NCBI GenBank assembly: GCA_903906635.1
Contig: CAIVLE010000205.1
Location: 1-57,083 of the forward strand
DNA: 57,083 bases
Origin: an uncultured Burkholderiales bacterium
Lineage (GTDB): Bacteria; Pseudomonadota; Gammaproteobacteria; Burkholderiales; Burkholderiaceae_C
Reading direction: 5' to 3'
In this document: piece by piece, positions 31,415-51,934 of the stretch
How the letters are laid out: every line of letters starts with the position of its first letter
Position numbering within the stretch: the first letter of the stretch is position 1
Position numbers and translations under genes: made by a program
The notes under the pieces: generated by a model
The model's input: the letters and a program-made list of their open reading frames with translations, nothing else
What the model was told of the DNA's origin: nothing
Database searches by the model: none

Positions 31415-31415
31415 A

Positions 31416-34835: not shown

Positions 34836-35026
34836 CAATGCGCATCCTCTGCAGGTAATTCGGCCAAGACACGTTCGGTGCGCAACTGCGCCAGAACTTG
34901 GGTACGTGCCCAACGCGCTTGCAACACTTCTAGGGCCAATAAACCAAAGGTCATGCCCATGCTCCCCCAGACATACACTGCATAGCCGCCCATGGCCCAA
35001 AAATCGGCCCAACTGTTCCAGGTCAT
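34835..35026 (-). CDS. ccmD: small haem exporter protein CcmD
   Basis: Small membrane protein of 63 residues with one helix, which links CcmE to CcmC and helps release holo-CcmE from the CcmABC complex. It begins [20 protein letters not shown], a typical CcmD start with conserved aromatic and Gly-Tyr residues, and ends in a basic then acidic cytoplasmic tail. The frame upstream of this ATG is open but lies within ccmC. It overlaps both ccmC (four bases) and ccmE. Confidence 0.9.
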
Positions 35027-35962: not shown

Positions 35963-36547
35963 ATGAACCACCCCAGTATTCGAATCATCCGCGAAGAGCA
36001 TGCTGCCTTGTCTGCCATGCTGCAGTCTTTGCGCATGATGCTCAAGCGAGGCCCCAAAGACCAGCCTGAAATGTTTTTCGATGTGCTGCGCGCCATGCTG
36101 TTCTACGTCGACGAGTTTCCAGAGCGCTTGCACCACACCAAAGAGTCTGCGCTCTTGTTTCCTCCTGTCGCCAAACGATCACCCCACTGCCAGGTGGTGA
36201 TCCAGCAACTGGAAAAAGACCATGCCAAGGGTGAGTCCAATGTGCGAGAACTCCAGCACCTGTTGCTGGCTTGGGAATTACTGGGTGAATCCAGACGCCC
36301 AGCCTTCGAACACGCCACAAACACATTTTTAGACTTCTATGTGCAGCACATGCAAATGGAAGAAACCGTGGTGATTCCGGAAGCCCTAAAGGTCTTGACC
36401 GACGAAGACTGGGCGGCCTTGGATGCTGCGTTTGAAACCAACGCCGACCCGCTCACCGGCAAATACCCCCATGAGCCCTTGTACGACCGATTGTTCACAC
36501 GCATCACCATGAATGCACCCGAACCCATCGGACTGGGGCGCCATTGA
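35963..36547 (+). CDS. hemerythrin-domain protein 1
   Basis: Cytosolic four-helix di-iron protein of 194 residues. Likely iron ligands lie in IIREEHAALS, RLHHTKESALLFPPV, QLEKDHAKGE and HMQMEETVVIPEAL, matching the H-x-HxxxE-H-HxxxE order of hemerythrins with some spacing differences. Such proteins bind oxygen or nitric oxide or deliver iron (YtfE-like). The GGAG ribosome-binding site is 10 bases before the ATG. An FNR-like box lies upstream, so it is probably induced at low oxygen. The gene is followed 17 bases later by a second hemerythrin gene. Confidence 0.87.
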   Translation: MNHPSIRIIREEHAALSAMLQSLRMMLKRGPKDQPEMFFDVLRAMLFYVDEFPERLHHTKESALLFPPVAKRSPHCQVVIQQLEKDHAKGESNVRELQHLLLAWELLGESRRPAFEHATNTFLDFYVQHMQMEETVVIPEALKVLTDEDWAALDAAFETNADPLTGKYPHEPLYDRLFTRITMNAPEPIGLGRH

Positions 36548-36564
36548 CACACAAGGGGCAAACC

Positions 36565-37104
36565 ATGAACACAGACACCCAAGCATCCAGCTATCCACTG
36601 GAAGGCTTCACCCATTCGCATTTCGACATCGTGATTCAGCTCGACCGCTTGGCCGAGTTGCCAGCACTGTTGGCCCCTGCCGAATTGGCCAAAAAAACAG
36701 CCCTCAACGCCTTGGCCTTTTTCAAAAACTCGGTGCAAGTCCACCACAGCGATGAGGAGCGCGCTTTGTTTCCTGCCGTCAGCCAAAGCGCAACGCCCGG
36801 CTCAGAGCGGGCTCGCGTGGAAGACCTGGTGGAAGAGTTGGTGCGCCAACACCGCAGGCTCGAATCGCTTTGGCACACGATAGAACCTGAGTTGAAAAAA
36901 ATAGCCAAAGGCAGCGACCATCAACTCAACACAGATTGCTTGACCCAGTTGGTGCAGCAGTACCATCACCACGCCCGTTTTGAAGAACGAGAGTTTTTAC
37001 CCTTGGCGCATCGCATCCTGAGTCGCAACCCTCACCACATGGAGGCCCTAGATTTGTCCTTGCACATGATGCACCGCCCCAGCTATCTGGCAGCCCACAT
37101 CTGA
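36565..37104 (+). CDS. hemerythrin-domain protein 2
   Basis: Second four-helix hemerythrin-like protein, 179 residues. Likely metal ligands are in FTHSHFDIVIQLDRL, VQVHHSDEERALFPAV, LVRQHRRLES and YHHHARFEEREFLPLAH. It is only distantly similar to its neighbour, so the pair is probably not a recent duplication. The ATG at 36565 is preferred over the TTG at 36544 because an AAGGGG ribosome-binding site precedes it. The two genes probably form one transcript under the FNR-like site. Possible roles are oxygen sensing, nitric-oxide binding or iron-centre repair. Confidence 0.86.
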   Translation: MNTDTQASSYPLEGFTHSHFDIVIQLDRLAELPALLAPAELAKKTALNALAFFKNSVQVHHSDEERALFPAVSQSATPGSERARVEDLVEELVRQHRRLESLWHTIEPELKKIAKGSDHQLNTDCLTQLVQQYHHHARFEEREFLPLAHRILSRNPHHMEALDLSLHMMHRPSYLAAHI

Positions 37105-37137: not shown

Positions 37138-38346
37138 TCATGGACGAACCGCATCCAGGCGCAAGTTCAACTTGGAGTTGGCCGACGTGACCGTCGGTTT
37201 GGTGGCTGAATACAAATCCCCCGGTTCGGGTTTGGCTTGCCCTGACTTGGAGACACGCGCCTCCAATTCGATCTTCGGATGAGCCGACAAGCTCACGCCA
37301 TCTCCCATGCGCAGGCTGTCATCGATTACAAAGGCTTGCGGAAAGTCACCCACCTTGGAGCGAAACACCGCCAGCGGCATGCGCTCTCCAGGTCGACGGG
37401 CAATGACCATCAACACATCCGTGGGCAGCACCTTGACCTGCAGCCCTCGGCCCAACTCCACCACACCCTCGATCTTGACGGCGGGTTTGGCCGCGAGCGC
37501 TGAGACGGGCGCTGTCAAGGTGCCGCCGCTGTCACGCGCCTCTTGGATCGCGTCAACCAATGTTTGTGCGTCGTCCGAATCTGGCGGTAACAACGCCTGC
37601 AAGCGGTTCCAGGTTTGAATCGCCTCGGTGTAACGCTCAGCACGAAAGGCCGCCGTGCCAGCCAGCCACAGTGCCATTGGATGGTTGGGGTCAGCCGCCA
37701 ACGCCTGCTGAATCAAGGCAGCGGGCTTACCTGCGAAATTGCCATTGGCATTGGTTGCCACCACATCAGCATAGTCCGCCAACATCTGGGCATCCAAGGG
37801 CATCACCTGCGCTGCACGTGCATAGGCTTTTTCAGCATCTAGCGGGCGACCCATCACTTTGTAGGAGCGCGCCAACATGGCCCATCCTTTGGGGTTGTTG
37901 GGGTCAAGCTTGAGCTTTTGCTCCAAGCCAGCCACCATCTGCTCCACCTCCTTGGCCGCTGCAGAATTGGTTGCGACAAGCCCCTCGATGGCCTCGGGCG
38001 TTCCTAGCCAAAGGTACAAACACACGGCCGTCACAGGCAGCCACAAGCCCAAAGCCACCAGCGTTCGTGTTGGCGTGGGGTAAGAGGCCTGAGCAGCCGA
38101 GGTGTCACCTTGCGATTCGTCGAGCACGCGCTGGGCCAACTCGCGCTGGGCCTGCGCATGGTCGTGTGGCGACAACGAACCCTCTGCCAAATCCATGTCC
38201 AGGCGACGCCTGTGTTCTTGGTATGCCAGCGCATTGACGTGTTCATGGCTCACGGCCAACGACTTGCGCTTGCCCATGAAAGGCCGACACAACAGCAGCA
38301 GCACCACAGCGAACAAGGCCAACGCGGCAAGAAGAAAAACAATCAT
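37138..38346 (-). CDS. ccmI: cytochrome c biogenesis protein CcmI, copy 2
   Basis: Second apocytochrome chaperone, 402 residues. It keeps the family layout: an N-terminal helix MIVFLLAALALFAVVLLLL, a cytoplasmic loop with YQEHRRRLDMDLAEGSLSP, a second helix (LVALGLWLPVTAVCLYLWLG), then TPR repeats seen in GWAMLARSYKVMGRPLDAEK, and a C-terminal beta domain. It is 43 residues shorter than copy 1, mostly in the linker and TPR part, which is the part that recognises client cytochromes. It is the last gene of the mto-ccmFHI run, overlapping ccmH2. Confidence 0.92.
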   Translation of the reverse strand: MIVFLLAALALFAVVLLLLCRPFMGKRKSLAVSHEHVNALAYQEHRRRLDMDLAEGSLSPHDHAQAQRELAQRVLDESQGDTSAAQASYPTPTRTLVALGLWLPVTAVCLYLWLGTPEAIEGLVATNSAAAKEVEQMVAGLEQKLKLDPNNPKGWAMLARSYKVMGRPLDAEKAYARAAQVMPLDAQMLADYADVVATNANGNFAGKPAALIQQALAADPNHPMALWLAGTAAFRAERYTEAIQTWNRLQALLPPDSDDAQTLVDAIQEARDSGGTLTAPVSALAAKPAVKIEGVVELGRGLQVKVLPTDVLMVIARRPGERMPLAVFRSKVGDFPQAFVIDDSLRMGDGVSLSAHPKIELEARVSKSGQAKPEPGDLYSATKPTVTSANSKLNLRLDAVRP

Positions 38347-38804
38347 GGCGCATCTTTCTGCATCAATTCCTGCACCCGCTGCTGCTCTTGGGCCGACAAC
38401 TCGCGAGGCGATTCAAGGGGCTTGAGCGTGCGCAGGTGGCGCAACAACATCACCAAGGCCCACAGCAGCAACGCAAAGGGTCCCAGCCAAAGCAGCCAAG
38501 TTCGTTGGCTCACAGGCGGGCGGTACAAGACAAAGTCGCCATACCGCGCCACCATGAATGCTTTGATGTCCGCATCACTTTTGCCTTGCTGGATCAACGC
38601 GCGCAGCTCACGCCTGAGGTCTTGCGCCAACTCGGCGCGAGAGCCAGCCAAAGACTCGTTTTGACACACCAAACAGCGCATCTCTTCAGAGATCACGACC
38701 AAACGCTGCTCCACCAACGGGTCTTCGGCCAATAGCACGGCCTCTTTGGCCCAAGCCGAGGCCATGGTGCCAAGACACCACACCACCACCACCAGGGTCT
38801 TCAT
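38343..38804 (-). CDS. ccmH: cytochrome c biogenesis thioredox protein CcmH, copy 2
   Basis: Second CcmH, 153 residues from the chosen ATG, with a signal peptide (TLVVVVWCLGTMASAWA), the motif MRCLVCQNESLAGS and a C-terminal membrane helix in LLWLGPFALLLWALVMLL. The first ATG at 38822 would overlap ccmF2 and add six residues before the signal peptide, so 38804 is preferred. The motif is the same LVCQNE type as in copy 1, and there is no sign of an NrfF-like change. Confidence 0.92.
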   Translation of the reverse strand: MKTLVVVVWCLGTMASAWAKEAVLLAEDPLVEQRLVVISEEMRCLVCQNESLAGSRAELAQDLRRELRALIQQGKSDADIKAFMVARYGDFVLYRPPVSQRTWLLWLGPFALLLWALVMLLRHLRTLKPLESPRELSAQEQQRVQELMQKDAP

Positions 38805-38811
38805 GTGCATC

Positions 38812-40740
38812 TCACACCTCATGCGTCACGCGGGCTGTGTGGCGACGGTAGCGGCGGTCCAGGGTCGCCAACACCCCCCCCAAGGCCATCAGCAAGCAGC
38901 CGCCCCAAATCCAATCGACAAAGGGTTTTATAAACACACGCACCGACCAGGCCGATCCATCCAGCAACTCGCCCAGCGAGACATACAGGTCGCGCGTCAC
39001 AGCGGTATCAATCGCGGCCTCGGTCATGGGCATGGCCGATGAAAAGTAACGCCGTTTTTCAGGGAACAAGGTCAAGCGCACTTCTGCGTTGTGGCTGACC
39101 TCAAAGGTCGCACGCGAGGCCTGGTAATTGGGGCCATCGACTGGCTCAACGCCCAGCAGTTTGAATTGGTAAGCCCCCAAGGTGGCAGTGTCGCCCGGCT
39201 CCATCCGCACATCTTTTTCTTGCTGGTAGCCCCCCACCAATGTGACGCCCACCACAAACACGGCCATACCCGAATGCGCCAACTGCATGCCCCAATACGC
39301 CACGGGTGGCATGCCCACACGCACACGCTGCACCACTTGCGTGAGCACCGAACTGGCCACCCAAGCAGCCACGGTGATACCCACATAGGTCATCACCGTG
39401 GCCTCACCGAGGGACAACCTCACCCACAGGGGGGCGATCACAGCCGCGACAACCGCCACGCGCAGGTGCTTAAGCAAAACAAGCGCCGAGGCATTCTTCC
39501 AGGGGGCCAACGGTCCGACCCCCATCAAGACCAGAACCGGCAACATGATGGGCACAAAGACGGTGTTGAAGTAAGGCGGGCCGACCGATAACTTGCCCAA
39601 GTTGAGCGCGTCCATCACCAAGGGATACACCGTACCCAGCAATACAGCGCAAGCGGCCACAACAAAAAACACATTGCCCACCAGCAACAGCGCTTCGCGC
39701 GACAACAGTGCAAACGATCCCCCACGGCTGTGCTGGTGCGCCCGCGCGGCAAACAAGGTGAGCGATGCGCCGACCACCAAGGCCAGCAAAATCAAAATGA
39801 ACACCCCACGGCGCGGGTCAGAGGCGAAGGCATGCACCGAGGTCAGCACACCAGAGCGCACCAAGAATGTCCCCAACAGCGACAAAGAAAACGCGCTGAT
39901 GGCCAGCAAAACCGTCCAGTTTTTGAAACTGCCGCGCTTGTCTGTCACAGCCAACGAATGCAGCAAGGCCGTTCCCACCAACCATGGCATGAAGGAGGCG
40001 TTTTCGACCGGATCCCAAAACCACCAGCCACCCCAGCCTAACTCGTCATACGCCCACCAAGATCCCAGGGCAATGCCCGCAGTCAAAAAAGACCAGGCTA
40101 CGGTGGTCCAAGGGCGTGACCACCGGGCCCAGGCCGCGTCCAACTGTCCCGACAACAAGGCGGCGATGGCAAAAGCAAAGGCCACCGAAAAGCCCACATA
40201 GCCCATGTAGAGCATGGGCGGGTGAAACACCAAACCAGGGTCTTGCAACAAGGGGTTGAGATCTCGGCCATTGGGCGGTGCTGGCAACAAACGCTCAAAA
40301 GGGTTGGAGGTCAAGAGCACAAACAACAATAAGCCCATGGTCACCAAACCAAGCACACTCAACACGCGCGCCACAGTCACATCGTCCAAGTGACGAGACA
40401 ACTGCGCCACCGCCAAGGTCCAACACGCCAGCATGTAGACCCACAGCAACAGAGAGCCTTCGTGGCCACCCCAGACAGCACCAATGCGGTAGATTACCGG
40501 TAACTGGGCATTGGAATGCTCTGCCACATACTGGACCGAAAAATCATTGCAGTAAAAAGACCATACCAACACACCAAATGCCACCGACATGGCGACAAAC
40601 AGGGCTTGGGCGGCTGGGCGCGCCAAAGCCACCCAGCCAGCTCGAGCCTGCTGCGCACCGACCAAGGGCAGCGTGCCTTGAATGAAAGCCAAACACAGCG
40701 CCACCACCAGGGCTAAATGCCCAATCTCAGGAAGCATCAT
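38812..40740 (-). CDS. ccmF: cytochrome c haem lyase subunit CcmF, copy 2 (mto-linked)
   Basis: Second haem lyase subunit, 642 residues, about fifteen helices. The [12 protein letters not shown] loop and the WWD domain [21 protein letters not shown] are intact. Its ATG overlaps the stop of the CymA-type cytochrome by four bases, so it is translationally coupled to a client gene. Only F, H and I are duplicated. CcmABCDEG are shared. This mirrors NrfEFG, the dedicated lyase set of nitrite reductase, but no CxxCK motif or NrfA is present. The likely clients are the multihaem proteins upstream. Confidence 0.95.
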   Translation of the reverse strand: MMLPEIGHLALVVALCLAFIQGTLPLVGAQQARAGWVALARPAAQALFVAMSVAFGVLVWSFYCNDFSVQYVAEHSNAQLPVIYRIGAVWGGHEGSLLLWVYMLACWTLAVAQLSRHLDDVTVARVLSVLGLVTMGLLLFVLLTSNPFERLLPAPPNGRDLNPLLQDPGLVFHPPMLYMGYVGFSVAFAFAIAALLSGQLDAAWARWSRPWTTVAWSFLTAGIALGSWWAYDELGWGGWWFWDPVENASFMPWLVGTALLHSLAVTDKRGSFKNWTVLLAISAFSLSLLGTFLVRSGVLTSVHAFASDPRRGVFILILLALVVGASLTLFAARAHQHSRGGSFALLSREALLLVGNVFFVVAACAVLLGTVYPLVMDALNLGKLSVGPPYFNTVFVPIMLPVLVLMGVGPLAPWKNASALVLLKHLRVAVVAAVIAPLWVRLSLGEATVMTYVGITVAAWVASSVLTQVVQRVRVGMPPVAYWGMQLAHSGMAVFVVGVTLVGGYQQEKDVRMEPGDTATLGAYQFKLLGVEPVDGPNYQASRATFEVSHNAEVRLTLFPEKRRYFSSAMPMTEAAIDTAVTRDLYVSLGELLDGSAWSVRVFIKPFVDWIWGGCLLMALGGVLATLDRRYRRHTARVTHEV

Positions 40741-41333
40741 TCGTCAGGGTCTTCGTATTCTTTGGGCAATTGATGGGCAATGCCTTTGTGACAGTCGATG
40801 CATGTTTTGCCTTCTTCTTTGGCTTTCATGTGCTTTCTGTAAGGCGTTTGTTTTTGCAGTTCGGAACTCATCGCATCAAAGTTGTGGCAATTGCGGCATT
40901 CGCGTGAATTGCTTTCTTTCATGCGTTGCCACTCGTGACCTGCCAACTCCATGCGCTTGGCTTCGAATTTTTCTTTGGTATCGATGCTGCCGGTGATCTT
41001 GCCCCAGACCTCAAAACTGGCCTTGGACTTGCGGATCATTTTGTGTACCCAATCTTTGGGCACATGGCAATCAGAACAGATGGCACGCACACCTGTGCGG
41101 TTGCTGTAGTGGATGGTCTCTTTGTACTCTTGGTACACCGTGTCACGCATTTCGTGACAGGTGGTGCAAAACTCTAAGGTGTTGGTCATCTCCATGGCGG
41201 TGTTGAACCCACCCCAAAAAATAATGCCCGCAACAAACGATGTGCTAGCGATCCCGATCAGCGAATATTTGGCACTTGGTTTCTTCAAGATGCGCCACAC
41301 GCGTTTGAAAAACCCGGGTTGTTCGTTGTCCAT
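40737..41333 (-). CDS. cymA: NapC/NirT/CymA-type tetrahaem quinol dehydrogenase (mtoC/cymA)
   Basis: Inner-membrane-anchored periplasmic cytochrome of 198 residues. One N-terminal helix (about 23-42) is followed by four CxxCH motifs: CTTCH (56-60), CSDCH, CRNCH and CIDCH. This is the NapC/NirT/CymA pattern. CymA passes electrons between the quinone pool and periplasmic cytochromes, in either direction. The length matches CymA (about 190 residues), and not longer NrfH-fused forms. The start ATG follows GGAGTACAACCTC. Its stop overlaps ccmF2. Placement after MtoB matches mtoC/cymA of Fe(II)-oxidising betaproteobacteria. Confidence 0.92.
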   Translation of the reverse strand: MDNEQPGFFKRVWRILKKPSAKYSLIGIASTSFVAGIIFWGGFNTAMEMTNTLEFCTTCHEMRDTVYQEYKETIHYSNRTGVRAICSDCHVPKDWVHKMIRKSKASFEVWGKITGSIDTKEKFEAKRMELAGHEWQRMKESNSRECRNCHNFDAMSSELQKQTPYRKHMKAKEEGKTCIDCHKGIAHQLPKEYEDPDE

Positions 41334-41359
41334 GAGGTTGTACTCCGGTCAGTTCAATT

Positions 41360-41388
41360 AAAAAAGCGAGGAGTTCAAAGCACCCCTC
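41360..41388 (-). terminator. hairpin with T-run between mtoB and cymA (possible attenuator)
   Basis: Read on the minus strand, GAGGGGT and ACTCCTC pair (one G-T wobble) across a seven-base loop, followed by GC and six T residues. It lies 36 bases after the mtoB stop and 27 bases before the cymA start. It may reduce readthrough into cymA-ccmFHI. Confidence 0.6.
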
Positions 41389-41424
41389 AAAGCTCATCAC
41401 ACCCAAAGGGTTGACATGTGTGGG

Positions 41425-43797
41425 TCAAAAGCTGTGAATGAAACTGGCCCCAAACGCATTGACAGAGTAACTACCGGAGGTCTGGTACGTGGGCAACAAG
41501 GTGTTGGGGTTGGAACCTTGGGTCGTGGCATTGGCCGGCCCTTGGTAGCCGTTGTAGTAGTAGTCGCTGCTGGTCAAGCGTTGCTGCAAATACATCAGCA
41601 CTACTTTGGAAGATTTGTCGACTTGGTAGGTTCCCGTGAGTTTGAAACGTGTGGTGTTTGAGCGAATATCTGGCAACTGACCGCATGACAAAATTTGCGC
41701 GCTACTACAGGTCAAGATATTGCTGCCTGTGGGAACGCCCAAAGTCGCACCGGGGTAGTTCAGCTGTGTGTTGTAGCCTGCGTTGCCCAAGGAATAACTC
41801 ATGTCCCCGGCCAACTCAAACTTACCGGCCATCAATCCTCCTTGCTTGAATCCGAAACCCACCGTCAAGTCTTCGTCTGTCAACTTATTGGTCCAAGTGG
41901 CCACGGCAGGAATGTTGAGGGCAGTGGCACTGGCCGCACTGGCTGTGGTGGTGTAGCGCTGCAAATTGGTCATGTCCCGTTGACGCGACTGCTGGGTGAC
42001 AAAGGCATTCAATGAACCGTTGTCTGCGTAGTTGTAGGTGGCATCCAGGTTCAAGCTCCAGCTCTTGCCGTTTTGTACACCATAGGTGCTGTCTGGGTAT
42101 TTGTCATCGCTGTAGCGGCCACTGACGCTCAACTCCAACAACTCGTTGGCCTGCCAATTGACACTGGCCTTGACATATTGCTGCTGACGAGAAGCAGAAA
42201 ACACAGGATAAAAGCCGTAATAGTCACCCGCGTTTTGTCCTTTGGTTGTGGTGTTGGGCGATGGCACAGGACCGGGCACTGCACCGTTTTGACTGATGAA
42301 GCTGGCCAACGCATAGGGATCAGAAATGGTTTTGCGATCGCTGAAGCCCATGCCCACTTTGAACTGTGTGTCTTCGGCAGTTTTGATGCGGTAAGTGGCA
42401 TCCAATTTGTCGTCAGTGCTTGATTTAGCCACCACACAGTTGACACCGGCGGTGTAAGCCGTACCACCACCCGACGCCAATTGGTTGCACCAGCGGTCAA
42501 GATTTTCGTGGCTGACCGACATGCGCAGATGCTGGTCTTGTTGCAAACGGTAATCCCCAGCGACTTCGAGCTGTTCTTTGCGGGTGCTCAATGGGGTATT
42601 GGGGTAGTTGGCCGTGTTACCCCCGTCGATCGCATTGAAGTTGTACAAGTTCGAGGTGGTCAGGTTGTTGCGCTGGTCATATTTGTAGGCCACCGACATC
42701 AGCAACTCACGACTGGCTTGATGCGTCAATTTCGCATCGGCATGCGTGTTGATGATCGAACCATTCAATGAGCTGGGAATATTGTTGTTCAATAACAAAC
42801 CATTGGTCGAGATAAAGGGGACGTTTTGCGAGCCACCGCCATAAGAAAAATTGGCTGCCAGCTTGGTCTGCGGTGCGAGCTTGTAGCCACCCGACAAATT
42901 GACTTGGTTGAACGAGTTGTTCGGCGCCGTAGGCATCAGCTGGGTGGTACTGGCGCCAGCCCAACTTTGAAACTGCACGCTGTCGTAGCCATCCCTGAAT
43001 ACAGAACCCACGATCGACATGGTGGCGTAGGCGTCGTCCTGACGCCAGTTCATGGCTACGTTGTAGTTGTCGGTTTGATAATTGGTAGGCATGGGCAAGA
43101 TCGACACCGCTTGTCCTGTGGCGCCTGCGACCCCGGCAATGCCAAAGGCCATCAACTTCGCACCTGACTGGTCGAGGTGGTTGTAGTCAAAGGTGTAATT
43201 GAGATGCGAATCGATCACCACGCCGCCACTCAGGGTGGTGTTTTTACGCGTGGTGCCAACGTCCATCGTTCTGAATGCGGCCAGCTGAGCGGCCGAGATA
43301 CCCCCGGTGAGCGTGGGATTGTTGGTGTTGGCTATCAGGCCAAACCCTGGCAAAGAGAAAACATTGCCCCCGTTGCCACCTGAGTAGGGAGTTTGGTAGC
43401 TGTCGGTGAGGCTGTGCTGCAGCGCATCGTATTGCAGGTTCAGATTCCAAGAGCCTTGGTCGCTGATAGTGGCCTGCGCATCACGCGAACTCAGCCCCAA
43501 GTTGCTGCCCCGGATGGACCAGCGCTGGGTGGCACCGGTTTCGTTCTCATCGTACGCACTGCCTCCGCGCACATCGAGGTTACCGATGCCGTATGCGCCG
43601 CTTTTGTTCAGCCCAGAGTATTCGCCGAACTTGGCCGAACTTTGGGAGACACCCAGCACACCCCATTCAATCGTGTTCTCGGGTTTCTTCAAGGCTGCAG
43701 CTTCGTCGTCGTCGGCGCGAGCAGACATGGCGGTCAGGGCCGTGAGCACAGCCAAGGCCATGACACTGAGGTTCAGATTGGTTTTATGCGAGCTCAT
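41425..43797 (-). CDS. mtoB: MtrB/PioB/MtoB-family outer-membrane beta-barrel protein
   Basis: Large outer-membrane porin of 790 residues that would sheathe the decahaem cytochrome through the outer membrane. A signal peptide (ALAVLTALTAMSARA) precedes a mature chain of alternating polar and hydrophobic strands, rich in Asn, Ser, Gly and Tyr, ending in a terminal Phe as outer-membrane proteins do. No N-terminal CxxC as in Shewanella MtrB is present, and the first Cys is about residue 440. This fits PioB/MtoB-type members. The second ATG, six bases from GGAG, is preferred. It lies 21 bases after mtoA. Confidence 0.88.
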   Translation of the reverse strand: MSSHKTNLNLSVMALAVLTALTAMSARADDDEAAALKKPENTIEWGVLGVSQSSAKFGEYSGLNKSGAYGIGNLDVRGGSAYDENETGATQRWSIRGSNLGLSSRDAQATISDQGSWNLNLQYDALQHSLTDSYQTPYSGGNGGNVFSLPGFGLIANTNNPTLTGGISAAQLAAFRTMDVGTTRKNTTLSGGVVIDSHLNYTFDYNHLDQSGAKLMAFGIAGVAGATGQAVSILPMPTNYQTDNYNVAMNWRQDDAYATMSIVGSVFRDGYDSVQFQSWAGASTTQLMPTAPNNSFNQVNLSGGYKLAPQTKLAANFSYGGGSQNVPFISTNGLLLNNNIPSSLNGSIINTHADAKLTHQASRELLMSVAYKYDQRNNLTTSNLYNFNAIDGGNTANYPNTPLSTRKEQLEVAGDYRLQQDQHLRMSVSHENLDRWCNQLASGGGTAYTAGVNCVVAKSSTDDKLDATYRIKTAEDTQFKVGMGFSDRKTISDPYALASFISQNGAVPGPVPSPNTTTKGQNAGDYYGFYPVFSASRQQQYVKASVNWQANELLELSVSGRYSDDKYPDSTYGVQNGKSWSLNLDATYNYADNGSLNAFVTQQSRQRDMTNLQRYTTTASAASATALNIPAVATWTNKLTDEDLTVGFGFKQGGLMAGKFELAGDMSYSLGNAGYNTQLNYPGATLGVPTGSNILTCSSAQILSCGQLPDIRSNTTRFKLTGTYQVDKSSKVVLMYLQQRLTSSDYYYNGYQGPANATTQGSNPNTLLPTYQTSGSYSVNAFGASFIHSF

Positions 43798-43818
43798 CAT
43801 GATCTCCAATTTCGTACA

Positions 43819-44829
43819 TCAGCGCTGGAGGTAGCCACCAGCAGGACTGTTCGATCCGTGCACTTGGCTGTGGCAATTCATACAGGCACGCCCCACAATG
43901 TTTTTATTGGGGTACTGCGCCACACCGCTGGCGTTGTTTTTGGTCAAGCCGCCTTGGTAGCTTGCCGCATTGGGGCCAACGGGAGTGCCACTGGCGTGTG
44001 TTCCGTCATGGCACTCTTGGCACATGAACGGTGGGCGCGATTTCAGCAAGGGCGCAATATTCGAACCGTGGGGGCTGTGGCAATTGGCACAGTCTTCTGA
44101 CACAGGCTGGTGTTCGAATAAAAACGGACCGCGTTTTTCAGCATGGCACTGGTAGCAGGTTTCGGTCACCGTGTTTTTCTTCAACAACTTGGGGCCTGTT
44201 GAACCATGTGGGTTGTGGCAGTCTGAGCACACCACTTTGCCCTCTTCAATGGGGTGATGCGAGATTTTTTTGCTGTCAGCCCGTTGCTCTTTGTGGCAGG
44301 TGAAGCACACCTCGGTTTGTGTTTTTTTGTTCAGTACCTTGTCTGTGGGCTTGTGAACTTGGTGACAGCTGTTGCAAGCCACGCCATTGTTTTGGTGTTG
44401 CGCACCGTCCCAGTTGCTGCGCTTGGAGCCTTTGTGGCAGGTCAAGCACTGCTCGGAGCGCTCTTTGTCACCAGACTGGGCAAACGCACCTTTTTTAAAC
44501 ACCACATCAGGCGCTGCACGTCCCTTGACGTTGGGGTCACCTTTGACGTGCTTATCACTGGCACCATGGCAAGACTGGCAAGTGGGTGTGCGTATGTCGC
44601 CGCGCACGCCGTGCTTGGTTTGGTAAAGAGACAACACCGGCGCTGTTTCGCTTTCGTCATGGCATCCGGTACACACCGCATCTTTTGTCAACGCCGCTTT
44701 GGCTATGGCGGCTTTGTTGTTTTCTTGACCTAAGTTGGGCAAGTTGCTGTCTGCGGCCCATGACAAGCCCCCAGCCCCCATGCCTGCTATCAGAATGCAA
44801 GTCGTCAAGAGTTTTCTAAGTGTTGTCAT
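43819..44829 (-). CDS. mtoA: decahaem c-type cytochrome, MtrA/MtoA/DmsE family
   Basis: Periplasmic decahaem cytochrome of 336 residues with a signal peptide cleaved near GGLSWAADS. All ten CxxCH motifs are present: CTGCH, CQSCH, CLTCH, CNSCH, CFTCH, CSDCH, CYQCH, CANCH, CQECH and CMNCH, in two similar pentahaem halves. The length matches MtrA (about 330). Inserted into its barrel partner, it would carry electrons across the outer membrane. No outer-surface MtrC-like decahaem gene is present, which favours the Mto/Pio type. MtoA in iron oxidisers accepts electrons from Fe(II). Confidence 0.94.
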   Translation of the reverse strand: MTTLRKLLTTCILIAGMGAGGLSWAADSNLPNLGQENNKAAIAKAALTKDAVCTGCHDESETAPVLSLYQTKHGVRGDIRTPTCQSCHGASDKHVKGDPNVKGRAAPDVVFKKGAFAQSGDKERSEQCLTCHKGSKRSNWDGAQHQNNGVACNSCHQVHKPTDKVLNKKTQTEVCFTCHKEQRADSKKISHHPIEEGKVVCSDCHNPHGSTGPKLLKKNTVTETCYQCHAEKRGPFLFEHQPVSEDCANCHSPHGSNIAPLLKSRPPFMCQECHDGTHASGTPVGPNAASYQGGLTKNNASGVAQYPNKNIVGRACMNCHSQVHGSNSPAGGYLQR

Positions 44830-44847
44830 CTCTGTCCCCTTATGTGC

Positions 44848-45204
44848 TTACTGAGCCAAGATCCACTGCACCAAGTTCTTGATCTGCTCCATGTCTTTCG
44901 GGGGCGAGGTTTTCACAATCTTGTGTTCTTCTTCGTGGCCATCAGCGAACTTGGCTTTTTCGCCAGAGGTGATGTGCTCGATCAAACGAGCCTCGGCATT
45001 GGCCTTGCCTTTGTATTTCTCGGCCACCTTGTGGTACGCCGGACCGTCTTTTTCTTTGTCAATCGCGTGGCATTTCAAGCAGTTGTTTTGCTTGGCCAAG
45101 GCCTTGGCGGCCTCGATATCCAATGCCAGTGCAGCGGGGGACAGAAACAAGCAAGCTGCGCCAACTAAGCTGGCAGCGATAGCGGAATATGTTGTGTGTG
45201 CCAT
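44848..45204 (-). CDS. mtoD: monohaem c-type cytochrome, MtoD-like
   Basis: Small periplasmic cytochrome of 118 residues with a signal peptide ending ALA (about residue 27) and one haem motif CLKCH (42-46). The C-terminal helix KNLVQWILAQ matches class I cytochromes c. The usual axial-Met segment (xPMPP) reads KTSPP, and the only mature Met is in PKDMEQ. An acidic, His-rich stretch DGHEEEHK lies just before it, so haem coordination may be unusual. It is the first gene of the cluster, and would shuttle electrons between MtoA and CymA or other carriers. Confidence 0.85.
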   Translation of the reverse strand: MAHTTYSAIAASLVGAACLFLSPAALALDIEAAKALAKQNNCLKCHAIDKEKDGPAYHKVAEKYKGKANAEARLIEHITSGEKAKFADGHEEEHKIVKTSPPKDMEQIKNLVQWILAQ

Positions 45205-45227: not shown

Positions 45228-45265
45228 AAAAACCCACACAGGCTTTGAATTGCAAAGTCTGTGTG
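45228..45265 (-). terminator. leader hairpin with T-run before mtoD
   Basis: On the minus strand CACACAGACTTTG pairs with CAAAGCCTGTGTG (one mismatch) over a five-base loop, followed by GG and five T residues. It has the form of an intrinsic terminator but lies 24 bases before mtoD, so it could end the response regulator transcript or act as an attenuator in the mto leader. Confidence 0.72.
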
Positions 45266-45300: not shown

Positions 45301-45353
45301 GCTATAGGCAGGGGATGAAGTTGGGCATCAGACAATTCCTAGACCTAGGAGTT
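45301..45353 (-). promoter_or_regulatory. candidate mto promoter with 7-2-7 inverted repeat
   Basis: An inverted repeat TTCCTAG-AC-CTAGGAG (45336-45351, with two more pairs outside) has the 7-2-7 spacing of NarL-family dimer sites, though not the NarL consensus bases. On the minus strand a possible -10, TATAGC (45301-45306), follows. The repeat would be centred near -49. It starts nine bases after the stop codon of the adjacent NarL-type regulator. Confidence 0.45.
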
Positions 45354-45361
45354 GTTTGGTA

Positions 45362-46009
45362 TTACTCGCGCACGGGATCGAACAGTTTGTGGTCGATGGC
45401 ATAGCGCACCAACTCGACTTGGTGGTGCATGTTCATCTTGAGCAAGATGTGTGACTTATGGGTGCTGACGGTCTTCACACTCAAAGACAGTTCATGAGCC
45501 ATCTCAGTCAGAGTCACACCGCGCACCAAGCGGCTGAACACCTCAAACTCGCGGTCAGTCAACAAGGTGTGCGATGGGTTGCTGGTATGCAGCAAAGTGT
45601 CTTCGGCCAGCAACTCGGCCACTTTGGGGCTGATGAACCGCCCGCCCTGGGCCACCTTGCGAATGGCGGGCACGATCAGGTCGCTGTCGCCTTCTTTGGA
45701 CAAATAACCTGAGGCGCCAGCACGGATCGCCCGCACTGCGTATTGCTCCTCTTGGTGCATGCTGAAGATCAACACTGGCAGTTTGGGCTTGTCAGTCTTG
45801 ATGAGTTTAAGCAACTCCAAGCCGTGGCGCCCAGGCATAGAGAGATCCAACACAACCGCATCCCAATCTCGGCTGCGCACCATCTCCAAGGCCAAGTTGC
45901 CGTTGGACGCCTCACCCCCCACGCACAGATCGGTGGTGTCGGCTAAGATTTTTTTCAAGCCATCGCGAATGATGGCGTGGTCATCGGCCACCAAAATTTC
46001 CAGAGTCAT
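45362..46009 (-). CDS. NarL/FixJ-type response regulator next to the mto cluster
   Basis: Response regulator of 215 residues. The receiver domain shows VADDHAIIRDGL, phospho-acceptor Asp55 in AVVLDLSMPG, and Lys in ASGYLSKEG. The LuxR-type helix-turn-helix region reads LTEMAHELSLSVKTVSTHKS. The start overlaps the stop of the sensor kinase by four bases, so the two form a two-component pair. It lies directly upstream of mtoD, with a 7-2-7 inverted repeat in between, so the mto operon is its most likely target. Signal unknown. Confidence 0.93.
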   Translation of the reverse strand: MTLEILVADDHAIIRDGLKKILADTTDLCVGGEASNGNLALEMVRSRDWDAVVLDLSMPGRHGLELLKLIKTDKPKLPVLIFSMHQEEQYAVRAIRAGASGYLSKEGDSDLIVPAIRKVAQGGRFISPKVAELLAEDTLLHTSNPSHTLLTDREFEVFSRLVRGVTLTEMAHELSLSVKTVSTHKSHILLKMNMHHQVELVRYAIDHKLFDPVRE

Positions 46010-48063
46010 GCCGTGTCTCCCAATGCATCAAGCACCGGCCAAGGCACCACCACCTTCACCGTCAAGCCGTGCTCGTTGTTGTTGGCAATCGAAAAAACAC
46101 CGCCAAGAGCCACCACGCGTTCACGCATGCTGACCAAGCCAATGCCGCCGCCCTTGGGGGGCGTGGGCAAGCCCACGCCGTTGTCCGTGACAGTCAGTAC
46201 CAAGTCCGCCTCGGCATGGACCAATCGAACCAGCACACAACTGGCATGGGCATGGCGGATCACATTGGTCAAGGACTCTTGAACAATCCGAAACAAGGCG
46301 GTCGCAAGGGTATCGTCTTTCACCCAAGTGGCGGCAGGCAGGTCGAGCTGCACCTTCAAGCCGCTGCGTTTTTCAATTTCTGCGGCTTGCCACGTCACGG
46401 CCTCGCCAAAGCCCAAGTCATCCAAGATCAAGGGGCGCAGTTCGGTCGAGATGCGGCGCACCGCCGTGATGGCTACGTCCAAAGACTGGCGCATCTCCAG
46501 CACCTTGTCTGGGCTGGCTTCTCGGCCGTCTTTGAGGCGATTGGCCAGCCACGACAGGTCCAATTTCAGACCGGTCAACTGCTGACCCAATTCGTCGTGC
46601 AATTCTCGGGCAATGCGTGCGCGCTCTTGTTCACGCACATCCTCAAGTTTGGCCGACAGCTCGCGCAATTGCTGGTTGGTTTGGTGCAAATCGGCCTCGG
46701 TGCGTCGCCGCTGTGTCACGTCACGCAGCACCGCCGTGAGTTGCTTGTGGTGACCGATCCAGGTTTGTGAAATCGTCGACTCAATCGGAAACTCGCTGCC
46801 ATCGCGGCGCAGTCCTGTGATCTCCAATTGGGGAGCCAAACTCATGGTGCGCGAGGACACCTGCGAATGCATGAACCGAGACACATGCACATCGTGCTGA
46901 GCGCGCGAACGCTCTGGGATCAGCACCGAGAGCTGCTGCCCCAGAATGTCTGGGGCAGCGAACCCAAACATCAACTCAGCGGCTGGATTGAACAAACGTA
47001 TGGTGAGTGTCTCGTCCACCGCGACCACCGCGTCCATGACCGAGTCAATCGTGTGGTGGTAGCGGTCAGTGGCATCGCGCAACTTGTCGCTCAACACCGC
47101 TTCTCGTTTCAATTCATGCACCAAAACTGCAGCGACGATACCAATGAAGACACACACGAATAAGGCCCCCAAACCGATGGGCACGGCGGTTTCACGCCAC
47201 GACGCTAAAGATTGCTCCTCGTCGTTACTGACACTCACCAGCAAGGGAAATTTCTGCACCCGTCCCACGGCAAAGTCGTACACCGCGCCGTCGCCGCTGC
47301 GGTGCTGAACCATGGTCACGTCGGCACCCACGCTCTGAATGTCAGCCTCACTGAGCTCGGGTGTTTTTTCGCCCATCATGTTCTCTCGATGGGGCAAACT
47401 CGCCACCAAGGTGCCGTCGCTCAAATAGATCGAGATAGGTCGCAAATAATCAAGCTTCATGAAGTTGTAGAGCTGCTCAAAGCGAGGAATATCCACCGCT
47501 GCCACCAACACGCCTTTGAACACACCGTTTGAACCCGAAATGCTTCGGGCCATGTACAACGTCCAACTGTTGTCGATTCGGTTACGCAGCGGATTGCCAA
47601 TAAAAAGGCCTTGCTGGTGATTTTCAGCAAACGCTTTGAAATACGCACGGTCACGGACCGACATGGACGGTGCAGCAATTTCTCTCGACGAGTTGATGAC
47701 CTGACCCTTCGCATCCACCACAAACAAAGACTTGACCTGCCGCACCCCAGAAGCTCGGGTGTTGAGCAACAAATGAATCGGCAAACTGTCCAGCGGGAAT
47801 TGGCTGCCATAGTTGTTTTGCATGCGTTCTTGCACGCCAACCAACAAGGTGTCTAGGCCACTGAAGCTTTGTTCGGTTTGCTCCATGAACATGCGCGCAA
47901 TGCTGATGGTTTCGACCCGCGAATGTTCCAACTCACGTTTGCGCAAATCCCACAGCAAAGCAGCGGCCGACATCGCAATTGCCAGCAAGGTGATGAGTAC
48001 AAAAAACCCCATCGCCTGCGAGGGCTTGGCTTGCAGCTTGAAGCGACGTAGATCGACCTTCAT
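46006..48063 (-). CDS. membrane sensor histidine kinase (Cache-PAS-HisKA_3)
   Basis: NarX/DegS-type kinase of 685 residues. Helix 1 (18-40) and helix 2 (about 295-318) flank a periplasmic dCache-like domain with SVRDRAYFKAF and GVLVAAVDIPRF. A PAS domain follows (YHHTIDSVMDAVVAVDE, FNPAAELMFGF). The HisKA_3 dimerisation domain holds the phospho-acceptor His489 in IARELHDELGQQL, and the ATPase domain has VTDNGVGL. The ligand is presumably a small extracellular molecule. It begins three bases after the nrdJ stop, so it may be cotranscribed with nrdJ. Confidence 0.92.
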   Translation of the reverse strand: MKVDLRRFKLQAKPSQAMGFFVLITLLAIAMSAAALLWDLRKRELEHSRVETISIARMFMEQTEQSFSGLDTLLVGVQERMQNNYGSQFPLDSLPIHLLLNTRASGVRQVKSLFVVDAKGQVINSSREIAAPSMSVRDRAYFKAFAENHQQGLFIGNPLRNRIDNSWTLYMARSISGSNGVFKGVLVAAVDIPRFEQLYNFMKLDYLRPISIYLSDGTLVASLPHRENMMGEKTPELSEADIQSVGADVTMVQHRSGDGAVYDFAVGRVQKFPLLVSVSNDEEQSLASWRETAVPIGLGALFVCVFIGIVAAVLVHELKREAVLSDKLRDATDRYHHTIDSVMDAVVAVDETLTIRLFNPAAELMFGFAAPDILGQQLSVLIPERSRAQHDVHVSRFMHSQVSSRTMSLAPQLEITGLRRDGSEFPIESTISQTWIGHHKQLTAVLRDVTQRRRTEADLHQTNQQLRELSAKLEDVREQERARIARELHDELGQQLTGLKLDLSWLANRLKDGREASPDKVLEMRQSLDVAITAVRRISTELRPLILDDLGFGEAVTWQAAEIEKRSGLKVQLDLPAATWVKDDTLATALFRIVQESLTNVIRHAHASCVLVRLVHAEADLVLTVTDNGVGLPTPPKGGGIGLVSMRERVVALGGVFSIANNNEHGLTVKVVVPWPVLDALGDTA

Positions 48064-48066
48064 GAG

Positions 48067-50484
48067 TTAACCACAAGCCCCCACATGGCCGCACTGGGTG
48101 CAAAACTCGCAACCGTCTTTGCGGATCACGGCATGGGCGCCGCATTCGGTGCATTTTTTGCCAGCCATAACTATCGGGCTGGGCACATTCAAACTGGCCT
48201 GCTCCTCTGTATCAGCCCCAGGAGATGAAAACTTGCACCGCGTCTCAATGATGTTTTGCACCGCATAGGCCACCGCAGCCACTTCGGAGTCGTGCCACAA
48301 AGGCACTTGGGTGCCGTCGGATTTGGCATAGGTCCCCAAGCGCACGGGGCCTCGGTCCCAGGCCACTTTGCGCATGTCACTCAGTGCACGTTCCAAAAAT
48401 CCGCCGCGCGCCGCCAAGGACAACAGGCGCATGCTTGAGGTCACCCATTGCTGCGACTCACCGCTTTGGCCAACCGGCATGAAGAATTCAATGGCACGCT
48501 CCAAGCTTGCGCTGCCATCCGTGCTCGGAATTTGCAAGAACGAGACCAACAGGTACAAGGTTTTTTGGCCTTCGTAGGTCCAGTAGTCCACCTTTTCAGC
48601 CACTGCGGGCAAGGCCCCCTTTGGGCGGCTTTCAATCACGGTGCGCATTGGATCGGTGGCCGCTTGTACCGGAACCGATGTGCCCAGCTCTGCCAAGGCC
48701 GGAACATCCAACACCGAACCCAGGATGCTGTTGGGCCGATAGGTGGCCAAGCCTTTGAGCTTGGCTTGCCAGGCTTGTTGGTACAAGTCTTTGAAGTCTG
48801 CGTAGGGGTAGTCCGCTGGCACGTTGACAGTTTTTGAAATCGCTGTATCCACAAAAGGCTGGACCGCTTGCATCATGGCAAGGTGGTCAGACGCCGCCAT
48901 CTCCAAGGCCGACACAAAGTAGCTGGGCAAGTGATCGACGTCACCACCGAGTTCTCGGTACAGGCGCCAAGCGTGGTCTTGCACCTCGTACGCGCTGGTG
49001 CTGCCATCGGATTCGCGTTTCTTGCGTTGGTAAACCCAAGAAAAAGCAGGCTCAATGCCGTTCGATGCATTGTCGGCAAAGGCCAGGCTCACCGTGCCTG
49101 TGGGCGCGATCGACAGCAAGTGGCTGTTGCGCAAGCCGTGCTGGCGAATTTGCGCTTTCAAGGCCTCAGGCAAGCGGCTGGCAAACGTGCCCGGCGACAA
49201 ATAGGCCTGCGCATCGAACTTCGCAAAAGCGCCTTTTTCTTGCGCCAACGCCACCGAGGCACCGTAGGCCGCGTCGCGCATGGTGCGCGCTATCTGAGTC
49301 GCCATGTCGCGGCCTTCAGCTTGGTTGTAATGCAGTCCTAGCATGACCAAGGTGTCGCCCAAGCCGGTGAAGCCCACGCCGATGCGGCGTTTGTCCATAG
49401 CCTCTTGCCGTTGCTGGGGCAGCGGCCAAAACGTCAGGTCGAGCACGTTGTCCAAGGCACGCACCTGCACAGCCACGACACGCGCAAAAGCCTCAAAGTC
49501 AAAGCTTGCGGCCCCTTGCAGGCCAAACGGATGGCGAACAAAACGCGGCAATATCACAGGCCCCAAGTCACAGCACCCGTAGGGCGGCAAAGGCTGCTCA
49601 CCACACGGGTTGGTGGCGTCAATCGACTCGCAAGCGCGCAAATTGTTGTCTTGGTTGATGTGGTCCAAAAACAAAATGCCCGGCTCGGCAAAGTCATAGG
49701 CCGACAGCATCACCTGGTCCCACACCGCTTGGGCAGGCAAGGTTTGGTAGGTCCACCAGCCATCGTCGCGCTGGCGTGCCCCCGCCGCCAGACTGGCATC
49801 GGCGGGCTTGGCGCGGTGCACCAAGTCCCAGTCGCGGTGCTCGGCCAAGGCCAGCATAAACGCATCCGGTACGCCGACTGAGACATTGAAGTTGTTCCAT
49901 CGTCCCGGCGTTCGTTTGGCTTGTATGAACTCCAGCACATCGGGATGGTCGATGCGCAACACCCCCATTTGAGCGCCGCGTCGCGCCCCGGCGCTCTCGA
50001 CCGTAGCGCACGATTGGTCAAACACATTGATGTAACTGCACGGTCCCGACGCCACTGAGGCTGTGCCATGCACATAGGCGCCACGCGGGCGAATGCGTGA
50101 AAAATCGTAGCCCACACCGCCACCTCGGCGCATGGTCTCGGCCGCTTCTCGCAAGGCCTCGTAAATGCCAGGGTAGCCTTGCGCGTCCACACCTTGAATG
50201 CAATCGCCCACGGGCTGTACAAAGCAGTTGATAAGGGTGGCTTGGATCGAGGTGCCCGCGGCACTCATGATGCGGCCCGCGCCAATGGCGCCCGCCTCTA
50301 GGTTAGCCAAAAACAACTCTTCGTAGTGGCTGCGCTGGTTCTCTGGCTCCACCGATGCCAAAGCCTTGGCTACGCGCAAAAAAACCGCTTGCGCATCGGC
50401 CTCGTCCGCTTTGAGGTATTTTTCTTTCAGCACGTCAAGGCTGATGGCCTGCGACGATGTCATATTCGAGGGTTCGCGCTTCAT
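48067..50484 (-). CDS. nrdJ: class II (adenosylcobalamin-dependent) ribonucleotide reductase
   Basis: Cytosolic enzyme of 805 residues that reduces ribonucleoside diphosphates using a coenzyme-B12 radical, so it works with or without oxygen. Active-site motif NPCGEQ is intact, with the redox Cys in NCFVQPVGD. The C-terminus has a zinc-ribbon-like KKCTECGAHA and CEFCTQCG tail with reducible cysteines. The ATG at 50484 follows AAGGA nine bases upstream; a shorter start at 50463 is possible. No cobalamin riboswitch is visible. Its position between ccmB and the kinase is unusual. Confidence 0.95.
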   Translation of the reverse strand: MKREPSNMTSSQAISLDVLKEKYLKADEADAQAVFLRVAKALASVEPENQRSHYEELFLANLEAGAIGAGRIMSAAGTSIQATLINCFVQPVGDCIQGVDAQGYPGIYEALREAAETMRRGGGVGYDFSRIRPRGAYVHGTASVASGPCSYINVFDQSCATVESAGARRGAQMGVLRIDHPDVLEFIQAKRTPGRWNNFNVSVGVPDAFMLALAEHRDWDLVHRAKPADASLAAGARQRDDGWWTYQTLPAQAVWDQVMLSAYDFAEPGILFLDHINQDNNLRACESIDATNPCGEQPLPPYGCCDLGPVILPRFVRHPFGLQGAASFDFEAFARVVAVQVRALDNVLDLTFWPLPQQRQEAMDKRRIGVGFTGLGDTLVMLGLHYNQAEGRDMATQIARTMRDAAYGASVALAQEKGAFAKFDAQAYLSPGTFASRLPEALKAQIRQHGLRNSHLLSIAPTGTVSLAFADNASNGIEPAFSWVYQRKKRESDGSTSAYEVQDHAWRLYRELGGDVDHLPSYFVSALEMAASDHLAMMQAVQPFVDTAISKTVNVPADYPYADFKDLYQQAWQAKLKGLATYRPNSILGSVLDVPALAELGTSVPVQAATDPMRTVIESRPKGALPAVAEKVDYWTYEGQKTLYLLVSFLQIPSTDGSASLERAIEFFMPVGQSGESQQWVTSSMRLLSLAARGGFLERALSDMRKVAWDRGPVRLGTYAKSDGTQVPLWHDSEVAAVAYAVQNIIETRCKFSSPGADTEEQASLNVPSPIVMAGKKCTECGAHAVIRKDGCEFCTQCGHVGACG

Positions 50485-51924: not shown

Positions 51925-51934
51925 GTGCGCGCGC

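Follow-up and report, generated by a model that had tools for sequence, protein, structure and literature searches.

Related conduits and the locus under study

The closest described counterpart of the locus analyzed here is the Mto system of Sideroxydans lithotrophicus ES-1, for which a 2026 model casts PmcA as a low-potential shuttle between MtoA and ImoA; since PmcA has been shown in print for ES-1 alone, we do not take it as defining Mto. In the same organism no contact of MtoD with either MtoA or ImoA is reported, and ImoA covers potentials from 0 to -400 mV (PMC13390432). Group 4 MtrCAB clusters of Betaproteobacteria (Baker et al. 2022, PMC8805035) occur in the same bacterial family as our locus, have mtoC/mtoD homologues and in some cases adjoin ccmA-I; genomes of the latter kind are reported to lack duplicates of the System I genes. 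PioABC of the phototroph Rhodopseudomonas palustris includes PioAB, whose homology to MtoAB is stated in the accessible portion of PMC10654088, and PioC, a high-potential iron-sulphur protein. Ferrovaceae of stratified lakes, some of them phototrophic, combine Mto-like and photosynthesis genes in one freshwater family, all of whose taxa are said likely to use a Cyc2-like protein (PMC13390463, as far as its available text goes).

We analyzed a 57,083-nucleotide stretch of DNA ("the window") from a metagenome-assembled genome (MAG) whose host is a member of the Comamonadaceae, probably related to Limnohabitans and probably from lake water. It bears a four-gene cluster that is an Mto-type outer-membrane electron conduit (Table 1). 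We put at about 0.7 the probability that this is an ES-1-lineage Mto conduit serving photoheterotrophic Comamonadaceae in the uptake of electrons from extracellular Fe(II) or humics to ubiquinone. The locus differs from that of ES-1 in that no pmcA was found, in the two-component system upstream, in its position inside a cytochrome c maturation (ccm) operon with a second ccmFHI, and in a host that has pufLM and no RuBisCO match. Unlike the Group 4 clusters, which have MtrC, it duplicates ccmF, ccmH and ccmI; unlike PioABC, it displays CymA and MtoD, with no high-potential iron-sulphur protein among the scanned window ORFs; and its host belongs to a family other than Ferrovaceae.

Table 1. Features of the mto locus and its surroundings, in window coordinates.
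Feature	Coordinates	Strand	Description	Evidence
ccmC (35023-35781), ccmE, ccmF1, ccmG, ccmH1, ccmI1	30077..35781	-	second part of split ccm operon	Pfam
two hemerythrin-like proteins	35963..37104	+	ccmC edge of insertion	PF01814, 57 bits each
ccmI2	37138..38346	-	TPR/CycH	TIGR03142, PF23892; 35% to ccmI1
ccmH2	38343..38822	-		PF03918; 60% to ccmH1
ccmF2	38812..40740	-	second haem-lyase subunit; 4 bp overlap with cymA	CcmF_C, Cytochrom_C_asm
cymA/imoA	40737..41333	-	198 aa, 4 CxxCH; inner-membrane NapC/NirT tetrahaem quinone oxidoreductase	PF03264, 248 bits (cut-off 24)
mtoB	41425..43809	-	794 aa; outer-membrane barrel sheathing MtoA	PF11854, 362 bits (cut-off 23); TIGR03509, 396.5 bits (cut-off 240)
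mtoA	43819..44829	-	336 aa, 10 CxxCH; decahaem outer-membrane conduit cytochrome	TIGR03508, 289.6 bits (cut-off 192.2)
mtoD	44848..45204	-	118 aa, 1 CxxCH; periplasmic monohaem bis-His cytochrome c	PF00034, 38.1 bits (cut-off 21.3)
hairpin, then U run	45235..45265	-	between dyad and mtoD; candidate terminator or attenuator	66-nt fold, z=-2.86
24-bp dyad	45332..45355	.	upstream of mtoD	overlaps diverged copy (10/14, 45328-45341) of the box of related loci
response regulator	45362..46009	-	LuxR/NarL-type, proposed mto regulator	Response_reg + GerE
sensor kinase	46006..48063	-	dCache-PAS-HisKA_3-HATPase	domain architecture
nrdJ	48067..50538	-	B12-dependent ribonucleotide reductase, between ccmB and kinase gene	TIGR02504, 568 bits (cut-off 400)
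ccmA (51286-51972), ccmB (50609-51289)	50609..51972	-	first part of split ccm operon	CcmB, 247.6 bits; ABC_tran

The four-gene cluster and its kinship with ES-1

An earlier note on this DNA, made without database searches, had read positions 45204-40737 of the minus strand as four genes for 1-, 10- and 4-haem proteins and a barrel, in the mtoD-mtoA-mtoB-cymA order of ES-1 (L193 in our set of loci), and both the genes and their order are borne out. Successive gaps measure 18, 9 and 91 bp. The window has 27 sites with the CxxCH DNA pattern, whereas 9.2 are expected and 0/100 shuffles reach 27; 15 of the sites are those of mtoD, mtoA and cymA. Identity to ES-1 MtoD, MtoA, MtoB and ImoA is 60, 65, 48 and 72%, respectively, the MtoB match scoring 698 bits. 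The best solved-structure relative of MtoD is 4xxl (E=1e-40), identified as ES-1 MtoD in the available text of PMC4412085, and the ES-1 haem ligands His47/His95 correspond to His46/His94 of the window protein, which are kept in all 82 rows of the alignment, where some contigs are counted twice. CymA retains the CXXCHXM haem-I motif of ImoA and the equivalents of His74, Lys101, His167 and His186, quinone-site residues among them. MtoB is predicted to adopt an MtrB-like barrel fold (model pLDDT 80.4; best PDB match MtrB 6r2q_B, TMt 0.90). Its 794 residues are counted from a TTG, and ATG codons a few residues downstream are likelier starts.

Trees of MtoA and MtoB, which the earlier note had proposed as a check, agree in placing the window with ES-1, outside the main clade of MtrCAB loci from the host's family. 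In the first MtoA tree a 47-row clade holds both (SH-aLRT 99), and a more careful MtoA tree retrieves the grouping with bootstrap/SH-aLRT of 99/86; eight MtrC-bearing loci of the window's bacterial family form a separate clade. A topology that unites the window group and seven MtrCAB rows in one clade is rejected (p-AU 0.006, for groups chosen after inspection of the first tree). The absence of an MtrC-like surface cytochrome also stands: the OmcA/MtrC-family model passes its cut-off in 0/84 genomes of the genus, the window's included (two weak sub-cut-off matches fall in other genomes), and in 0 of 14 control genomes; with the same model, ten large decahaem proteins encoded at Mtr loci of the family score 414-608 bits. 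Without MtrC beside mtrAB, and with its MtoA outside the family's main MtrCAB clade, the locus is therefore not assigned to MtrCAB. Against the Mto reading weighs one member of the 47-row clade, L083, which has a large 9-haem protein close by, and PMC10734462, in its available part, doubts that tree or direction can separate MtoA from MtrA.

The best model for MtoA, TIGR03508, is named for the DmsE family by NCBIfam, which would suit a decahaem protein and barrel of the DmsE/DmsF type serving an extracellular reductase of DMSO or a similar substrate. However, a Pfam scan of 30 window ORFs, neighbours on both sides included, disclosed no molybdopterin/DMSO reductase (dmsAB), and in gene order and sequence identity the cluster matches ES-1 mto. 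We accordingly give the DmsE/F identity almost no credence, rejecting it on gene context. The MtoA and MtoB trees contain no named DmsE or PioA reference. An argument for transfer, based on MtoA identities that seemed higher beyond the family than within it, was dropped, because Comamonadaceae-labelled loci and a Ramlibacter reach 72-82%, some of them unplaced in or out of the genus.

Describing the conduit as complete, as the earlier note did, holds for the four genes that it named; in ES-1, however, pmcA is an additional neighbour of imoA, and a search of the genus gave no match to PmcA (0/84 genomes). A tblastn search across all the loci compared found PmcA below E=0.001 in ES-1 alone. Likewise, the four genes do occupy 40737-45204, but the unit is larger, with a two-component system upstream and haem-lyase genes downstream.

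Insertion into a ccm operon

Within the ccm operon, ccmB and ccmC are separated by an insertion that holds the mto cluster and a second ccmFHI. The ccmF2 product is 63% identical to that of the window's ccmF1, while its identity to the CcmF proteins of two other mto loci is 69% (L137) and 74% over 258 residues (L097); because it is closer to the ccmF of these mto loci, we do not regard it as a recent copy of ccmF1. A second ccmFHI adjoins mto only in the window and in its close relative G049; none separates mto from the ccm genes in genome G063 or in the seven named loci where mto precedes ccmA. Co-produced with CymA, CcmF2-H2-I2 would increase the capacity to attach the conduit's 15 haems.

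Such an arrangement could also be produced by assembly or binning, either as a foreign fragment in the MAG or as a chimaera within ccm. GC content is 0.517-0.547 in three 2-kb intervals over 40501-45500 versus 0.552-0.634 in the other 34, and the ccmB-nrdJ junction is seen in the assembly of the window alone, with both the G049 and the G063 contig beginning later. Nevertheless, G049, a separate assembly, carries the same partial nrdJ-mto-ccmC string at 94-99% identity, the order mto-hemerythrin-ccmC recurs in G063, the insertion is bordered on either side by ccm genes of the genus and MtoA itself is found in 13/84 genus genomes, so that we hold an artefact to be very improbable.

A linked two-component system and its putative operator

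In many related loci, too, the gene immediately upstream of mtoD encodes the response regulator. Relatives of the sensor kinase (E<=1e-80) occur in 4/13 mto-positive versus 0/71 mto-negative genus genomes; in three of the nine mto-positive genomes without a match (G040, G063 and G070) the contigs end too early, while in the other six they do not. We infer that the regulator acts on a palindromic box before mtoD, TAGGAATATTCCTA, which is matched at >=11/14 positions in 17/22 regulator-positive versus 3/50 regulator-negative upstream regions, a comparison whose p-value is not independent because the box was read off the same loci that were scored. The window's own copy has diverged (10/14). A first operator motif, TCCTAGGTCTAGGA, derived from the window alone, was discarded: it reaches >=11/14 in only 3/30 regulator-positive regions, namely the window's own and the two supplied by a near relative's contig that is present twice.

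The hairpin between the dyad and mtoD is a candidate terminator of the regulator gene or a candidate leader attenuator. None of the 21 other regulator-positive upstream regions features a leader hairpin like it, the two matches obtained being the box palindrome itself. A scan for sigma-70 promoters returned 2 sites versus 5.8 expected.

Phototrophy and carbon fixation in the genus

The photosynthesis genes pufLM are present in 55/84 genus genomes. The window's genome (a single MAG, 92% complete, which limits absences accordingly) and G049 both have pufLM and no RuBisCO match. Across the genus, pufLM occurs in 8/13 mto-positive versus 47/71 mto-negative genomes (p=0.76), and RuBisCO matches, counted as such although those near 230 bits are possibly RuBisCO-like proteins, in 2/13 versus 29/71 (p=0.12). 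With 5/13 mto-positive genomes lacking pufLM and two having a RuBisCO match (11/13 lack one), neither trait goes with mto. Since the window's host has the reaction centre and gave no RuBisCO match, the electrons most likely serve as a supplement to photoheterotrophic or microaerobic energy gain and not as a basis for autotrophy.

Direction of electron flow

We propose that the cache-domain sensor kinase and NarL-type regulator would turn on the mto operon, and that the ten haems of MtoA, sheathed in the MtoB barrel, would draw electrons from Fe(II), from Fe(II) bound to humics or minerals, or from reduced humics. These would pass to a periplasmic carrier, most simply MtoD, and thence through CymA/ImoA to ubiquinone in the inner membrane, or, in an alternative branch, from MtoD to a high-potential acceptor. 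As no MtoD-MtoA or MtoD-ImoA contact is reported in ES-1 (PMC13390432), MtoD is an unproven carrier here. MenD passes its cut-off in 0/84 genus genomes versus 7/14 controls, in a search confined to the MenD route to menaquinone; hence ubiquinone is likely the quinone, as stated for ES-1. Weak sub-cut-off matches in 83/84 genus genomes are presumably other ThDP enzymes. The potential of ubiquinone lies above the ImoA range, so transfer from ImoA to ubiquinone is downhill.

The same conduit might instead run outward, quinol electrons passing via CymA, MtoD and MtoA to Fe(III), Mn(IV) or humics, either in respiration or as a means for a photoheterotroph to shed excess reductant. The reversibility of Mto/Mtr is discussed in the available part of PMC10734462, ES-1 ImoA substitutes for CymA in Shewanella, running outward (PMC13390432), and Rhodoferax MIZ03 both oxidizes and reduces iron, according to the accessible text of PMC8552755. 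On the other side, MtrC is not found over cut-off in the genus; MenD is below cut-off throughout, and ubiquinol would be a poor donor to low-potential ImoA; and the lineage is shared with the Fe(II) oxidizer ES-1, though lineage is no proof of direction. We thus consider outward flow unlikely and favor uptake to ubiquinone.

A broader picture is tentative and, in our estimation, rather doubtful as a whole: Limnohabitans-related Comamonadaceae without a Calvin cycle might, as photoheterotrophs, save organic carbon by feeding Fe(II)/humic electrons into ubiquinone; the general periplasmic carrier of Mto systems might be MtoD and not PmcA; and the conduit might be a mobile cassette that settles at the ccm operon and is equipped with a sensor, an operator box and haem-loading genes of its own.

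Implications

The locus presents a known kind of conduit in unusual packaging. Clusters without PmcA make it possible to ask directly which small cytochrome is the electron carrier, a question on which the published view changed in 2026, and the regulator and box provide a handle on the signal that switches Mto on. Mto is known mainly from specialized iron oxidizers, and here it recurs in a genus in which photosynthesis genes are common; if its hosts are planktonic photoheterotrophs, as they seem to be, iron- or humic-driven electron uptake would extend to ordinary lake plankton.

The Mto conduit and its relatives

The four consecutive genes claimed by the earlier note, mtoD-mtoA-mtoB-cymA, are all present on the minus strand at the positions claimed (see the table), as are the haem motifs that it had counted, with one CxxCH in mtoD, ten in mtoA, none in mtoB and four in cymA. 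At the DNA level, the window contains 27 occurrences of the CxxCH pattern, where 9.2 are expected, and 15 of the 27 fall within these four genes. Pfam and NCBIfam models strongly assign MtoA, MtoB and CymA and identify MtoD as a class I cytochrome c. As the reference we used a genome consisting of a single 3.0-Mb contig, taken to be Sideroxydans lithotrophicus ES-1, because it alone matches the 4xxl MtoD at 100% in a search of 158 genomes from the family of G570, a genome that shares an identical MtoA with a named Gallionella MAG. Its cluster (L193) has the order mtoD-mtoA-mtoB-imoA-pmcA, and the window proteins are 60% (MtoD), 65% (MtoA), 48% (MtoB) and 72% (CymA/ImoA) identical to their ES-1 counterparts. 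The two histidines described as binding the haem in the ES-1 MtoD crystal (His47 and His95; PMC4412085) are kept in 82 of 82 aligned rows, some of which represent one contig twice, and in alignment the window CymA keeps every ImoA residue named in PMC13390432. An AlphaFold model of MtoB (45 sequences, pLDDT 80.4) displays 27 strands of at least 8 residues and is predicted to share the fold of MtrB from the Mtr complex (TM 0.90, E=4e-40; next match E=4e-10). In the PDB file of that complex, 6r2q, the molecule name of chain A, which is MtrA, reads cystathionine beta-synthase.

The MtoA and MtoB phylogenies that the earlier note had called for both place the window with ES-1 and apart from eight same-family MtrC loci. 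In a quick MtoA/MtrA tree (137 rows), the window lies inside a 25-row clade (SH-aLRT 99) of window-genus genomes and MAGs labelled Comamonadaceae, Burkholderiales, Limnohabitans or beta proteobacterium, which is nested in a 47-row clade with ES-1 (SH-aLRT 99). The eight MtrC loci, with MtrC confirmed by model, form a separate clade (support 100), and two further ones (L205, L207) group with S. baltica MtrA (89), a placement made unsure by the long S. baltica branch. In a careful tree restricted to 52 chosen rows, ES-1 and the window group together at 99/86 (bootstrap/SH-aLRT), and a topology uniting the window group and seven MtrCAB rows in one clade is rejected (p-AU 0.006, the groups having been named after the first tree). 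Likewise, the MtoB tree (96 rows) recovers ES-1 and the window in a 38-row clade (98), with the eight MtrC loci elsewhere. The window cluster is a genuine Mto conduit belonging to the ES-1 lineage. Clade membership is no proof of the direction of electron flow, because PMC10734462 reports weak support along the backbone and no clean separation of MtoA from MtrA; direction, donor and carrier in the window host are candidate assignments.

As to the carrier, PMC13390432 describes MtoA and ImoA of ES-1 as contacted by PmcA, not MtoD. PmcA gave no match in the 84 genus genomes, in a search run without a positive control, and tblastn over all fetched loci returned L193 of ES-1 alone below E=0.001. 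In 45 loci, from 37 distinct contigs, mtoA and cymA occur together and the sequence continues for 1 kb or more past cymA; mtoD is present in 40 of these loci, and pmcA in that of ES-1 alone. In most Mto systems, either MtoD or an unlinked cytochrome acts as the carrier.

Genomic packaging

The ccm operon of the window is split, and the mto cluster lies between its two parts.

Features of the window in and around the insertion
Feature	Window position	Remark
Two Crp-type DNA-binding-domain genes	55209-56678	convergent on opposite strands; near mto region
ccmAB	51972-50609	first part of split ccm operon
End of ccmB homology	50611	equivalent of point in L223
B12-dependent ribonucleotide reductase gene	48067-50538	inside insertion; 3 bp ahead of kinase gene
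mtoD-mtoA-mtoB-cymA	45204-40737	minus strand
mtoB	43809-41425	
Hemerythrin-like genes	35963-37104	
ccmC-ccmI	35781-30077	second part of split ccm operon
Start of ccmC homology	35757	equivalent of point in L223

A ccmC match was found in 74 of the 84 genus genomes, and 30 ccmC loci were fetched. In 26 of these ccmB adjoins ccmC, 25 being from genomes without mto and one from G039, which has mto on another contig; a lone hemerythrin gene separates the two in one mto-less genome (L220, G005); and mto lies upstream of ccmC in three (the window, its close relative G049, and G063). In L223 just 7 bp separate the end of ccmB homology from the start of ccmC homology. Of the two edges of the insertion, the one at ccmB is visible in the window alone. 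In seven named loci elsewhere (L088, L093-L098), mto lies directly upstream of ccmA. Genes for hemerythrin-like proteins are found repeatedly close to mto in the genus (the window, L067, L071, L073, L074, L076 and L087).

The unit reaches beyond the four genes. Downstream, a second ccmF (ccmF2) shares 4 bp with cymA, and ccmH2 and ccmI2 come next. CcmF2 has 63% identity to the window's own CcmF1, against 69% to CcmF of the mto locus L137 and 74%, across 258 residues, to its counterpart in L097, a Ramlibacter locus where mto precedes ccm. Given the higher identity to the latter two, CcmF2 probably came in together with mto rather than by recent duplication of CcmF1. Baker et al. (PMC8805035) report ccmA-I next to mtrCAB and saw no duplication of System I genes in those cases; the window differs from them in its second ccmFHI set.

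Upstream of mto lie genes for a kinase with dCache and PAS domains and for a LuxR-type regulator. Kinase relatives (E<=1e-80) occur in four of the 84 genomes, every one with MtoA (p=0.0004); among the nine MtoA-bearing genomes without it, the contigs of G040, G063 and G070 stop short of that point and those of the other six do not. In related loci the palindrome TAGGAATATTCCTA lies ~105-155 bp upstream of mtoD. Across 72 upstream regions (86 minus 14 near-identical), it matches at 11/14 or better in 17 of 22 regulator-positive versus three of 50 regulator-negative loci, the box having been derived from the same loci on which it was scored. The window's own copy has diverged (10/14) and was scored as a miss.

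Spread and host

Counting the home genome (G000) each time, MtoA is found in 13 of 84 genus genomes (75-98% identity, the window aside), 21 of the 250 family genomes sampled (at most 57% outside the genus) and 31 of the 300 order genomes sampled (up to 67%). Among the best 80 of 138 named relatives are a Ramlibacter and loci labelled Comamonadaceae, with MtoA identities of 72-82%. As some of these loci are not assignable in or out of the genus, we dropped identity as evidence of transfer. Horizontal transfer would be compatible with the GC dip over mtoAB in the window, with the uneven distribution and with the differing flanks.

Several relatives depart from the usual arrangement. Four loci labelled Methylococcaceae, Crenothrix or Methylobacter (L135, L139, L142, L150) carry mtoD-mtoA and form a single MtoA clade; as fetched, three of them also include mtoB. 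More than one mtoAB pair per locus occurs in L153 (three pairs), L124 and L131. A MAG labelled Desulfovibrionaceae (L145) carries mtoD, mtoA (59%), cymA and mtoB, through either transfer or misbinning. L087, from a genus relative, is 81% identical to the window in MtoA and 93% in CymA and only 42% in MtoB, with DNA identity dropping across mtoB and recovering beyond; from these alignments, mtoB looks to have been replaced by a distant allele, as though the exposed surface of the barrel were under diversifying pressure.

Limnohabitans often carry puf genes. We infer a Limnohabitans-like host, helped by pufLM above the cut-off in 55 of the 84 genus genomes, including G000 and G049, and a Limnohabitans-labelled MAG (L098) has a related mto cluster. 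The host presumably comes from a lake, judging by isolate codes and known data sets. RuBisCO gave no match in G000 or G049, where absence is no proof in a MAG 92% complete (G000), and MenD exceeded the cut-off in none of the 84 genus genomes. Among the open-licence PMC papers returned on Limnohabitans and mtoA, none reports such a cluster in the text covered, and no paper there was returned on Limnohabitans, extracellular electron transfer and a porin together. Conduits of the Mto kind are already known; what is unusual here is the genomic packaging, and what is unexpected is the host.
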